Shown in pieces: positions 3,970-15,918 of a stretch of DNA of 64,000 bases. Source of the DNA: Candidatus Endolissoclinum faulkneri L5 (GTDB taxonomy: Bacteria > Pseudomonadota > Alphaproteobacteria > Thalassobaculales > Thalassobaculaceae); assembly GCF_000510265.1 (NCBI RefSeq), contig NZ_CP006745.1, positions 889,654 through 953,653 of the forward strand, given 5' to 3'. The notes under the pieces were generated by a model. The model saw only the letters and a list, made by a program, of their open reading frames with translations, ran no database searches and had not been told where the DNA came from. The translations under genes were made by a program, and so were the position numbers. Each line of letters opens with the position of its first letter. Positions within the stretch are counted from its first letter, which is position 1.

Positions 3970-5520
3970 TCAATCTCCCAAGAGTACAGCAAGAGCTTGC
4001 GAATGCAAAGTATGCACTGCTTGATCTACAGCAAAACGCGCCTTTACCGCAGTGATCCATGGCTGTGCTGCCTCGGCAGATTTACCGACTAAAGCGTCCA
4101 AATAATTAGCTGCCATCAAAAGATCACCATGATCAGCGGCTGCTTCAGCTCGATTAATTATAGCGTCAAGAGAATTATATTCATCTGTTTTGGTGCGTCG
4201 CAATGTTACTAACGAAAATATACGTTTCATTACTTTGTCAACTATATTATTAGAATTACCGATTGAAGATGCGGATTTGATTATCGATTCGGCAAAAGAT
4301 GGGAAACTATACCGCAAGTCTGCCATCGAAGGTACACCATCCACATGATTGCGTAAAAAAACAATAGCGTCGGCAATTTTCAGCTGATCCCAAGCAGCAC
4401 CTTCTAATTCGTCGAGTTCTGTCGCAAAAGAAATACCTTTTTGATTAGCTTCCTGTAAAAGATCAATCGCGACCAAGAAAGCCCCAACCTTCTTTTTTTG
4501 ATTTCGGTATTCTTCTACTTTGTATTCTAGCTCTTTTTGAGCAACAGCTATATCGTCAAGTCGAGCGATCAGATTGGCATCCCTGTCTTCAAAAGAGTTT
4601 TGCAAAAATTTTATGCGCTCTTGCAAGATAACAAAATCATCAGAAGAGAAAAGCGGCCATCCAAAATTTTTTTGTCCTTTTATATCTAAAAAACTACGTT
4701 CTAAAATAGATAAACGATCCGACAAACCCCAAGCGGTTGGCAAAAATAAATTACTATCTTTCCCGCTGTTCTCTCTGTAGCGAAAAGTTGCTATAGTAGC
4801 AAATAGACTTTGAACTTTGCTATCCATCGCATCAATTTGCTCAGTTAGGCTATCGATACTTTTTTTTGTTGAATTAACCCATGCGGTTATTTTGGGCAAA
4901 AAATTAGTCTTAGTTTCCAAGACAACTAAGCGCGCTTGCAGCGACTCAAAATCTTTTTTCAACATTGCAAGAGAGTCGAAGAGAGAATCTAAAGATCCGT
5001 ATTTATTAGTTTGAGATCTAATATCTTCCGACGAATTAGATACATCTGGCTTTAAAAAGCCTATAATAGAATTGATCAATGCCAAAGGCGAGGTTACATC
5101 AACCATAGACACATATTGCTCTGCTTTTTCGCGCCACTCCGAATAACTGACATAACCAATGCTTATAGCCAACATAATAAATATAATAATAATTAAACGC
5201 ATGAAACCAACGCTTAGACTTTGATTCTCATTTGATAGTTTAGCTTTTTTATCACTTACGGTATTATTGCTAGTGTTTGCATCGTTCCCAGTCTGACAAT
5301 GAGAAACCTTTATCTTTTTGGTACTCGAAGCAGAATTCTGAGATGGCGTGACCATTAAACCCGCATTTTTTCTATCAAAATCACATTTATCATTATAGTT
5401 TGCTGTAGGAGAAACAACATTAGAGCTGACAGCTAATGAATCTTTATTACTAACAGATATTAGGCATCCTCTCGGATGCAGTCGGTTTACTAGTAAATAT
5501 ATGGAGCTCCTCCATTCCAT
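3970..5520 (-). CDS. Mitofilin-like (COG4223) inner-membrane coiled-coil protein
   Basis: A 516-residue protein with a long polar, low-complexity N terminus (1-105), one transmembrane helix (about 106-122, MRLIIIIFIMLAISIGYV), a long periplasmic coiled coil (about 160-340) and a C-terminal alpha-helical domain. The architecture and its place between hemD and hemY match the alphaproteobacterial mitofilin/Mic60-related family (COG4223), inner-membrane proteins linked in evolution to mitochondrial MICOS. The start ATG at 5520 is supported by a strong AGGGAGAGGA Shine-Dalgarno just upstream. The stop is 4 bp before hemY. The N-terminal 100 residues are poorly conserved in this family, so their sequence carries little information. 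Assignment rests on architecture and synteny rather than on strict motifs. Confidence 0.8.
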   Translation of the reverse strand: MEWRSSIYLLVNRLHPRGCLISVSNKDSLAVSSNVVSPTANYNDKCDFDRKNAGLMVTPSQNSASSTKKIKVSHCQTGNDANTSNNTVSDKKAKLSNENQSLSVGFMRLIIIIFIMLAISIGYVSYSEWREKAEQYVSMVDVTSPLALINSIIGFLKPDVSNSSEDIRSQTNKYGSLDSLFDSLAMLKKDFESLQARLVVLETKTNFLPKITAWVNSTKKSIDSLTEQIDAMDSKVQSLFATIATFRYRENSGKDSNLFLPTAWGLSDRLSILERSFLDIKGQKNFGWPLFSSDDFVILQERIKFLQNSFEDRDANLIARLDDIAVAQKELEYKVEEYRNQKKKVGAFLVAIDLLQEANQKGISFATELDELEGAAWDQLKIADAIVFLRNHVDGVPSMADLRYSFPSFAESIIKSASSIGNSNNIVDKVMKRIFSLVTLRRTKTDEYNSLDAIINRAEAAADHGDLLMAANYLDALVGKSAEAAQPWITAVKARFAVDQAVHTLHSQALAVLLGD

Positions 5521-12142: not shown

Positions 12143-13483
12143 TGATTAATTTGATTACTGACAAAGAAGCTAAAAGCCAATCAGATAGAGCGTAGTAACA
12201 TTCTACTCTCAAGAAGGAGCTTCTTAACGATTGATGGTACGTAAAATTTTCTAAATTACCGATTGACTTTATTATTGCCTCAATTAAGCTTAATTATATC
12301 TTGCAAATCAAATCTAGACAAAATAGCATCCTTGTTAATTTAAAAAACAAATTCTCCTCATGGTTACCGTTATGCTAGGCGAATAAAAGGATCTGATTAA
12401 TGATAAGACAAAGCGATAGCAATTTATAGATAAGGACGTTAGCACATTCATTAGATTACTCGCTGAGAAATACATAGTCGTATAAGATTGTCAATCTAGA
12501 ATTTAATCTTAAACAAAATTACCTAACTAATAGACAGATCATTATTTTATGCTTGTGAATGCAGACAGTTTATAGATAAACTGGAAGCATTAGAAATAGC
12601 CAAAGTTTTATTTCATAATATATTAGACCGAAAATAAATCCACACTGCTAAAATGTATAGTTTTTAACAAACAAATGTATTAGTTAAACAAACCACTAAA
12701 CAGTGTTAAAACTTAAAATATAATGATTATTACTGAACCTAGGCTTATAATTTAATTGCGAAAATTTTTGAATAAAAATCGAAGGTAAAAAGCAAAATTT
12801 GCTATCTATTCACTACAATCAAACCAGAATTTTGACTAAGTAATTACATTAATTGATAAAAATCAATGATTTTTGACTTTTGTAGTCTATGCTATTGCTT
12901 TGTCATTGACAATGAATTATAAGCTTTGAAAGAAGGCTATCATATTTAATTTATCTTTCCTTCGTTCAAATTAGCATATTTACAAGTTTATATTAGTATG
13001 GATAATAAATACAAGAATTTATGAATTTAACTAATAATTGAATCTTATTTTTATACTTTAATTAAAAGTATTTTACTTTATGGTATATTATGCTAGGTGG
13101 ATTTGTACAATTTAAATTGCGAATTTATTCAATGAGAATCATATGACGATGATCTAATATAATTATTGTAACTTTTCGATAATCAATAATTATAGCGCTC
13201 ACATTCTTGGGCTTATCTTGCTAAAAAGATAGCGACAGCTGTATGGCAAGCTTATCTATTTACATAGATGACATTTAATTATTCGTTATGGTGAACCAAC
13301 AAAATTCTACCTTAAGAGGTACTTTACAAAGTAAAAGTATAGTTTGATAAAATATCAAGACATTGTTCTTCGTATTATTTAGTGTTTTTTAATGGTGTAA
13401 AAAAAATAATATTGATTTTGCTCTTAACTAGAATGCTACAAGTGCAAGCTTGCGGTCTGGAAATTGTTTATGCTAAGCGAAGG

Positions 13484-13529
13484 GTTGTTTTATTACGTTC
13501 TTTTTTTTTAAAGAACGTAATAAAACAAC
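13484..13529. repeat. Perfect inverted repeat, 20-bp arms
   Basis: Left arm 13484-13503 (GTTGTTTTATTACGTTCTTT), six-T loop, exact reverse complement at 13510-13529. An open frame runs through it, but the hairpin explains the sequence better than coding does. Confidence 0.85.
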
Positions 13530-14157
13530 AGAAATTTATCAAAAATTGTCATTTATTTATCAGTTCTCACTAATTAAAAACGATCAATGTTAGTCATTTC
13601 GAACAAAGCATTCCTATATTCATAGGACGATAAATTATAGAATATCCTCATCATAAAATATTTTTATTTCTATATTGTTTGACTGCACTGATCAGTCCAT
13701 TGAACTTAACATCTTAATCGTAAGATTAACGTAATTAGCTATTTTCGCTTAGCATGAATAACATTCAATAATGCCTTGATTAATACACTTTATTAAGGAT
13801 GCAGTAGAATAATTTGGATCTAGTGAAATATTTTTATCTACTAGTAATACATTAAAAATTACTAAGCATCTATTGGGGATAGTTGAATTTGCCTTTATAG
13901 ATGCTTCTAAGTATAAAACACTGACTAACTTCTCCACCTTATTTCTAACTATATATTTTTCGAATAAAGATCTCCATCTTACCAGAAACCAATGACATCA
14001 TTAACTCTTGAAACAATGAAAAGCTTGAAAATTACCTTGTTATAATAAACTTTTATGGCGTGATTAAAGCTTGAGACTATTATTTTATGAATTATCACTT
14101 AATCGCTTAATTATAACTGGTTATATTTAGCAAAATAGAGTAAAGTCTAACTTTAGA

Positions 14158-14210
14158 ATTAGACAATATTAATTAACAATGCCTAGCATTGTTAATTAAT
14201 ATTGTCTAAT
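14158..14210. repeat. Perfect inverted repeat, 25-bp arms
   Basis: Arms 14158-14182 and 14186-14210 are exact reverse complements with loop CTA. It lies about 280 bp upstream of efp and has no T tract. A stem this long with no mismatch in otherwise drifting DNA suggests recent formation or selection. Confidence 0.9.
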
Positions 14211-14454
14211 GGATAAATCAATAGTTTAGAATTTATATACAATATTATATTAGATATTCTATATTTAGCACGTAACTCTTAACAGGAAAATTTAATAGTT
14301 TAACAACGTTAAAATTTAGATTATAATAATTAATGAAATATAATGATCTGTTTTTTATTAAATCATTTGTATTGTCATTAAATTTTGATTTTTTTAGTAA
14401 AATGATCAATCTAGACATATTGCTCAACAATGTGCTAAAAAGCGATTTGCTTTA

Positions 14455-14460
14455 TATAAT
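14455..14460 (+). promoter_or_regulatory. Candidate -10 box for efp
   Basis: Consensus TATAAT 30 bp before the efp start; no good -35 hexamer at the right distance. Plausible by position only. Confidence 0.3.
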
Positions 14461-14490
14461 TTTTTTTCGTTAAATTATTCGGGAATCCTA

Positions 14491-15063
14491 ATGAAGTTTA
14501 ATGGAAATGCACTACGCATCGGCAACGTGCTGGAGCATAAAAAAAGACTTTGGATTATTACTAAAGCCCAGGCAGTAAAACCAGGCAAAGGTGGAGCCTT
14601 TAATCAGGTTGAGATGAAAGACATTAGAAATGGTACGAAAATAAACGAGCGTTTTCGTGCGGGAGAGCAGGTCGAAGTTATACGTCTAGAACAACGTGAA
14701 GCAACCTATCTATATGATGACGGCAATATCTTGTACTTTATGGATCCAACTACTTACTCTCAGATAGAGATTGATGCTGGAATGATAGGTGATAAAAGAT
14801 CATTCTTAAAAAATGGCTTAACGGTAAGTATCGAGTTTTTCGAGCAAGAGCCGCTATCTATTTCCCTACCACACACAGTAGTTATGAGAATTGTCGAAGC
14901 AGATTCTGTAATTAAAGGACAAACCTCTGCAGCCTCATATAAGCCTGCTCTTCTAGAAAATGGTTTGAAAATTTTAGTACCACCTTATATTGAAACTGGA
15001 GCTTGTATTATTGTGAAAACTGAAGACTTCAGCTACGTTGAGCGCGCGAAGAATGACAATTAA
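14491..15063 (+). CDS. efp: Translation elongation factor P
   Basis: Relieves ribosome stalling at polyproline stretches. 190 residues, the usual three-domain length: N-terminal KOW-like domain with the modification loop KPGKGGAFNQVEMKDI (lysine at residue 33), the middle OB domain (REATYLYDDGNILYFMDPTTYSQIEI) and the C-terminal OB domain (SVIKGQTSAASYKPALLENG, VPPYIETGACIIV). A GGGA lies about 9 bases before ATG. It is followed 48 bp later by a suhB-type gene, a common alphaproteobacterial pair, so co-transcription is likely. The lysine-modifying enzymes are not in this window. Confidence 0.97.
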   Translation: MKFNGNALRIGNVLEHKKRLWIITKAQAVKPGKGGAFNQVEMKDIRNGTKINERFRAGEQVEVIRLEQREATYLYDDGNILYFMDPTTYSQIEIDAGMIGDKRSFLKNGLTVSIEFFEQEPLSISLPHTVVMRIVEADSVIKGQTSAASYKPALLENGLKILVPPYIETGACIIVKTEDFSYVERAKNDN

Positions 15064-15097: not shown

Positions 15098-15103
15098 AGA
15101 GGA
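15098..15103 (+). promoter_or_regulatory. Ribosome binding site of the suhB-type gene
   Basis: AGAGGA, 8 bases before ATG at 15112. Its good fit argues that the gene is still translated although its catalytic residues are lost. Confidence 0.6.
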
Positions 15104-15111
15104 ATATACTA

Positions 15112-15918
15112 ATGGCCGTTCATTCGGCCTTGTATAATGTAATTTTCAAGGCTTGCCAAAAAGCAGCACGCAACCTACGGCGAGACTTTGGCGAGATTGA
15201 AAATTTGCAAGTTTCTAAAAAGACCCCTATAGATTTCGTATTAACTGCCGACAGGCAAACCGAACGGTCACTATACGAAGAGCTGAAGCAAGCTAGACCA
15301 AAATACGGTTTCTTAATGAAAGCTAAAGGTACACTTCAAAGTACTGATCCGAATAAACAGCGTTGGATTATTGACTCACTTGACGGTGCCAAGAATTTCT
15401 TACATGGAATCCCGCATTTTGCCATCTCTGTTGCACTTGAAGAAAAAGGTGAGATAATTGCTGGTGCAATTTATCAACCATTAAATGATGAATTTTACTG
15501 GGCAGAAAAAGGTTCCGGAGCATATCTCAACAATCGTCGCTTACGGGTATCTAGCCGTAGTAACATTCGGCAAGCTTTGTTAGCTACTAACATTCCTACT
15601 TCTGCAATTAGTAATAATAAAAATTTATTTAGCATATCGCAAGCTAAACTGCGAGAAACAAGCGCTGGTGTGCGCTGCTTCGGTAGCTCAGCACTAAACC
15701 TTGCTTGGGTTGCTTCTGGCCGGCTTGATGGATACTGGGAGAAAAAATTAACCATCAGAAATACAGCGGCTGGTATTTTGCTAGTAAAAGAAGCGGGTGG
15801 CTATATTAGCGACTTTAAAGGTAGGGTTGCATTGCTAAAATCGGGAGATTTGATCGCAGCCAACAGCACTTTGCATACTACATTAGTCAATTCGTTAAGC
15901 GATATAAATATCTTTTAG
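15112..15918 (+). CDS. suhB: SuhB / inositol monophosphatase-family protein, catalytic site degenerate
   Basis: Family members are Mg2+-dependent phosphatases of inositol monophosphate and relatives; E. coli SuhB also acts in ribosomal RNA antitermination without needing catalysis. The 268-residue frame is full length, uninterrupted and family-like (DFGEIENLQVSKK, NFLHGIPHFAIS, GAIYQPLNDEFYWAEKGSGAYLN, RLRVSSRS, AAGILLVKEAGGYISD). The active site, however, is altered. The usual (G/M)EES is MKAK (69-72). DPxDGT is DSLDGA (88-93), keeping both Asp but losing the Pro and the catalytic Thr. WDxAAG is RNTAAG (215-220), losing the metal-binding Asp. Phosphatase activity is therefore unlikely (inference). 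It may be retained for a structural or RNA-related role or be in early decay. Good RBS; second gene after efp. Confidence 0.9.
   Translation: MAVHSALYNVIFKACQKAARNLRRDFGEIENLQVSKKTPIDFVLTADRQTERSLYEELKQARPKYGFLMKAKGTLQSTDPNKQRWIIDSLDGAKNFLHGIPHFAISVALEEKGEIIAGAIYQPLNDEFYWAEKGSGAYLNNRRLRVSSRSNIRQALLATNIPTSAISNNKNLFSISQAKLRETSAGVRCFGSSALNLAWVASGRLDGYWEKKLTIRNTAAGILLVKEAGGYISDFKGRVALLKSGDLIAANSTLHTTLVNSLSDINIF

Follow-up and report, generated by a model that had tools for sequence, protein, structure and literature searches.

Retention of SuhB after loss of its catalytic site in Candidatus Endolissoclinum faulkneri and other Alphaproteobacteria: a probable non-catalytic scaffold

In strain L5 of Candidatus Endolissoclinum faulkneri, a bacterium symbiotic with a sea squirt, we find that the efp-linked ortholog of SuhB has lost most of its inositol monophosphatase (IMPase) metal site while the gene itself remains under purifying selection, and that the same pattern occurs in several unrelated alphaproteobacterial groups with mostly small genomes. 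The explanation that we favour, with a probability of roughly 60%, is that this presumably inactive protein is a pseudoenzyme kept as a non-catalytic scaffold, most likely of the rRNA NusA/boxA complex, partners suggested by comparison with Escherichia coli. The phosphatase site would have been lost in the common ancestor of L5 and its sister strain L2, and the SuhB fold and its conserved non-catalytic surfaces would be held by purifying selection, as proposed here because the required role would be that of a protein- or RNA-binding scaffold. The likeliest such role would be to hold NusA, NusB/E and boxA RNA together on the RNA polymerase while rRNA is being made, without catalysis.

The efp-linked SuhB and its catalytic residues

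The gene lies in the window (the whole 64,000-nucleotide stretch of L5 DNA that was analysed), and its features are collected in Table 1; the L5 genome is one contig of 1,518,636 bases and the L2 contig measures 1,481,191 bases. As the original prediction had stated, the frame is open and encodes a full-length SuhB-family protein preceded by a Shine-Dalgarno sequence: the Pfam PF00459 profile matches residues 7-263 of 268 (195.7 bits, cut-off 27, E 1.4e-57), the predicted fold has an AF2 pLDDT of 87 and a pTM of 0.88, and the top Foldseek match is the SuhB of Bartonella henselae (3lv0/3luz, TM 0.85-0.87). The L5 gene is located directly downstream of efp, and its best sequence match is the SuhB of genus-mates. 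In all 30 loci of one compared set (L005-L034) efp and suhB are adjacent, a pairing that supports the orthology of L5 SuhB. The two genes are probably co-transcribed.

Table 1. Features of the efp-suhB locus, in window coordinates
Feature	Position	Strand	Basis or comparison
efp-like gene, immediately upstream of suhB	14491..15063	+	gene order
Shine-Dalgarno-like AGAGGAA ahead of the suhB ATG	15098..15104	+	similar in L2
suhB ortholog with IMPase fold (268 aa) and a lost catalytic site	15112..15918	+	PF00459, AF2, best PDB match
RDFGEIE, residues 24-30, alphaproteobacterial SuhB motif	15181..15201	+	still conserved in orthologs with a lost site
(M/L)EES replaced by MKAK, residues 69-72; Lys at metal-ligand position E70	15316..15327	+	MKVQ in sister strain L2
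DPLDGT replaced by DSLDGA, residues 88-93; Ala at the water-activating Thr93, Ser at Pro89; D88 and D91 kept	15373..15390	+	identical in L2
WD replaced by RN, residues 216-217; Asn at metal-ligand position D217	15757..15762	+	NN in sister strain L2

Elsewhere in the window, the intergenic stretch of about 2.3 kb at 12143-14490 holds no convincing ORF, in keeping with published accounts of a low coding density in this species. A Mitofilin-like protein of the bacterial Mic60 type (3973-5520, minus strand; PF09731, E 1e-12) persists in the reduced genome, and its gene is fast evolving between L5 and L2 (dN/dS 0.52, identity 66%).

The replacements at residues 69-72, 89 and 93 lie where the original prediction had placed them, and the change of WD to RN is equally real, although it falls one residue further on than the 215-216 first given. 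The description of most of the catalytic metal site as replaced is a fair one: E71 and W216 are also substituted, and the five scored positions E70, D88, D91, D217 and T93 read K, D, D, N and A in both L5 and L2, with D88, D91, G92 and K37 retained in both strains and D47 kept in L5 but E in L2. Restoration of the catalytic residues in a sister strain, named at the outset as a sign to the contrary, was not found, as L2 shares the losses in an open frame with MKVQ, DSLDGA and NN at the matching sites. The residues K70, S89, A93 and N217 common to L5 and L2 are E, P, T and D in four genus-mates with genomes of about 5 Mb, which have MEES, DPLDGT and WD. The same three motifs distinguish from both E. 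faulkneri strains the efp-linked SuhB of free-living Thalassobaculum litoreum, an ortholog with 69% identity to L5 and the same efp-suhB order.

We also compared both strains with 224 catalytically intact alphaproteobacterial orthologs. This reference set has 32 columns with an identity of 97% or more, and six of these are altered in both E. faulkneri strains: E70, E71, P89, T93, W216 and D217. All six lie in the active site, which is not a chance outcome (hypergeometric p = 5e-4, with 11 columns chosen by the analyst as the active-site set). On these grounds L5 SuhB is predicted to be devoid of phosphatase activity.

Losses across the class

Orthologs were drawn from a class-wide genome sample and from relatives of E. 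faulkneri, and were scored at E70, D88, D91, T/S93 and D217. The census retained 258 orthologs, of which 224 have all five residues, four lack one and 30 lack at least two (hereafter dead orthologs). The dead orthologs span 21 GTDB families, and they make up 28 of the 236 orthologs in the class draw outside the family of E. faulkneri, a frequency that is somewhat overstated by a sampling that was not fully random, in which all weak matches were chased and tens of strong matches, mostly from larger genomes, were left unread. Confusion with paralogs was addressed, and rejected, by means of efp adjacency, paralog-like matches without efp (L171, L172, L176, L236, L237) being omitted from the census together with one fragment (L207). 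Within the DNA examined efp adjoins suhB in 24 of the 30 dead orthologs; for some of the other six the DNA retrieved had no flanks or just 1.5 kb of them, and L170, L167 and L169 are the least secure as orthologs.

Intact and dead orthologs coexist in five families, and in two cases within a single genus. On a gene tree built without the catalytic columns, in which many dead rows form long branches that make its detail unreliable, the intact or dead label changes at least 11 times by parsimony, and the starred branches alone force four changes. The losses arose independently, at least four to five times and 11 times by parsimony on this tree, with loss taken as the direction because an intact site is near-universal. 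Judged from these comparisons, the separation of function in SuhB is a repeated one that extends beyond E. faulkneri.

The dead orthologs also indicate which parts of the protein are conserved. Intact orthologs have 49 columns with an identity of 93% or more. Only seven of these drop under 50% in the dead set, namely D47, E70, E71, D88, T93, W216 and D217; each belongs to the active site, and three of them (D47, E71 and W216) had no part in defining the set. In contrast, 32 of the 49 are kept in at least 70% of dead orthologs, notably D25, F26, E28, N95, G136, R143, V146, R188, G191, G203, E227 and G229; D25, F26 and E28 are identical in 93% of the 30, and the conserved AGG columns are retained alongside DFxE, G136 and R143. 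Against the scaffold reading, L2 has Leu at R188, the counterpart of E. coli R184. The dead orthologs of the 20 other families therefore resemble E. faulkneri in the catalytic residues lost and in the conservation of DFxE, G136, R143 and AGG, and differ from it in that many are far more diverged and in that the replacements vary by lineage. Constraint is also evident in congeneric dead pairs, with a dN/dS of 0.037 for L167/L169 and a low value, at saturated dS, for L097/L157.

Genomes with a dead SuhB have a median size of 1.5 Mb, against 2.75 Mb for those with an intact one, and 26 of 28 of the former but 109 of 204 of the latter are smaller than 3 Mb (Fisher p = 2.7e-5, relatedness ignored). 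Loss is not limited to strongly reduced genomes, because two in which most of the SuhB catalytic residues are gone measure 4.0 Mb (L206, genome G102) and 3.9 Mb (L225, genome G242). In one genus with genomes of 2.8 and 3.5 Mb, L204 (G069) lacks E70 and D217 (GDDTN) and L231 (G294) is intact, a second instance of loss within a genus. No clear SuhB ortholog was seen in some reduced alphaproteobacterial genomes (G067, G083, G107, G127 and others, some of them incomplete), at least one of which keeps the NusA acidic repeats. In Buchnera, suhB is among the genes that distinguish one group of lineages (PMC11188193).

Candidate roles of the retained protein

E. coli SuhB binds the second acidic repeat of NusA (AR2) and nut RNA and is required for the rRNA antitermination complex, a role in the Nus complex that is backed by structure and assays, and rescue of E. 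coli suhB mutants has established that the phosphatase activity is dispensable (PMC6614801, PMC4807359). The E. coli protein (PDB 6ib8, 6tqn) has family and fold in common with L5 SuhB (30-34% identity, Foldseek TM about 0.87), but it is an active phosphatase with an intact site, whereas that of E. faulkneri has been lost naturally. The alphaproteobacterial proteins further differ from it in having the class-specific RDFGEIE motif and in lacking an equivalent of K251. The E. coli NusA-AR2 contacts K251 and L254 correspond to T256 and V259 in L5 and to A and L in intact T. litoreum, so that a lysine here is not characteristic of Alphaproteobacteria and the two contacts are uninformative for the class. 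By these residues, the E. coli SuhB-NusA interface is apparently not conserved in detail in the class.

Elements of such a complex are present in E. faulkneri. NusA has both acidic repeats intact in L5 and L2, and NusB is encoded. Most dead-SuhB genomes encode the NusA acidic repeats, but so do several without a recognisable SuhB, and the repeats discriminate weakly for this reason. Upstream of the 16S rRNA in both strains lies a boxA-like TGCTTTTTGACAT, picked by eye, which resembles the E. coli boxA TGCTCTTTAACA and is followed in the leader (L054:1229-1295 and L053:1216-1282) by a conserved segment ending in GGGCGGCGG. L5 and L2 have almost the same element as a whole (TGCTTTTTGACAT...GGGCGGCGG), and a Thalassobaculum-group genome has part of it, whereas the rest of the leader has diverged. 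A boxA is expected in any alphaproteobacterium with NusB, whatever SuhB does. The acidic repeats, NusB and the boxA-like leader are necessary, not sufficient, for a Nus-factor role of SuhB, and it is from these together with the E. coli precedent that we infer rRNA antitermination as the retained role.

The same evidence leaves room for a pseudoenzyme with some other non-catalytic job, for instance as a partner of EF-P or translation, or as the inactive regulatory subunit of an intact IMPase paralog. This alternative, which we consider unlikely though it deserves serious attention, is favoured by the efp pairing in nearly all loci examined, and by the DFxE motif (residues 25-28), which is common to alphaproteobacteria and has no match to the known E. 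coli NusA-AR2 contact. It draws further on the three other IMPase-family genes of L5 and L2, one hisN-like, one cysQ-like and a third, divergent IMPase; on inspection, L5 and L2 both retain the metal ligands of these genes' products, omega is 0.10-0.18, and all three look catalytically intact. A second intact IMPase in the genome, combined with absence of this copy from transcripts, had been named in advance as evidence against a separation of function in SuhB; intact paralogs do exist, but they belong to these other types. Against another job stand the E. coli precedent, which points to transcription, and the fact that the sequence suggests no partner; a general heterodimer role is further countered by several dead-SuhB genomes (G166, G267, G103, G222, G052) in which a SuhB query yields a single candidate.

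It could also be that SuhB keeps an altered enzymatic activity in a rebuilt site, for example with Lys70 instead of a metal ion, given that D88, D91, G92 and K37 survive and that Lys70 is common to both strains. We regard this as improbable, since L5 and L2 differ at residues 47, 71, 72 and 216 within the old site and dead orthologs elsewhere have no common replacement, as expected if constraint were lost rather than changed.

Returning to the scaffold, a bolder and more tentative extension, which we would put somewhat short of an even chance, is that the function of efp-linked SuhB is wholly non-enzymatic across Alphaproteobacteria, the site being repeatedly lost once the enzyme is unneeded. 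DFxExxxLQ and the kept columns would then form the real working surface, a new interface for rRNA transcription or ribosome assembly unlike the NusA-AR2 contact.

Selection on suhB and its meaning for the family

The divergence of L2 and L5 has been put at 6-31 million years (PMC3851785). A maximum-likelihood codon comparison of suhB between the two gives dN 0.088, dS 0.51 and omega 0.17, with omega = 1 rejected (2dlnL = 70) and with similar values, mostly 0.08-0.33, for neighbouring gene pairs. The two proteins differ at 43 amino acids, four of them in the old active site, and are identical over residues 83-136. The gene is not a decaying one, because its omega resembles that of its neighbours and neutrality is rejected, and the relaxed dN/dS that would have spoken for decay is absent. 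That suhB is an early pseudogene, open by chance, would suit the very low coding density and many gene losses of this genome (PMC3851785), as would the fit of the E-to-K and D-to-N changes to an AT mutation bias; we nonetheless reject it as very improbable on the strength of the dN/dS and of the sister strain, the frame being open and the Shine-Dalgarno sequence kept in both strains at that dS, and losses recurring in other lineages under strong constraint such as that of L167/L169. An assembly or consensus artefact, conceivable for an uncultured symbiont with a genome assembled from a metagenome, is hardly credible and is likewise rejected, L5 and L2 having been assembled separately with the same changes and intact frames.

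The original prediction that a reduced genome has kept SuhB for a non-enzymatic role is partly supported: it holds as regards purifying selection for something besides catalysis, and gains from recurrence in the class, with rRNA antitermination as the putative role. Earlier work had shown E. coli SuhB to act in rRNA transcription independently of its phosphatase activity (PMC6614801, PMC4807359), and the generality of this non-enzymatic role and the surface responsible for it had been open. No earlier report of SuhB pseudoenzymes was found in the literature searched, the coverage of which is incomplete, so novelty is not proven. Overall, loss of the active site alone in many lineages is evidence that selection protects a non-enzymatic role of SuhB in alphaproteobacteria, and the dead orthologs supply a residue-level map of the parts of SuhB that matter, as well as natural variants for testing them. 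The pattern also calls for caution in annotation, as many genes labelled inositol monophosphatase in reduced alphaproteobacterial genomes probably do not encode phosphatases.
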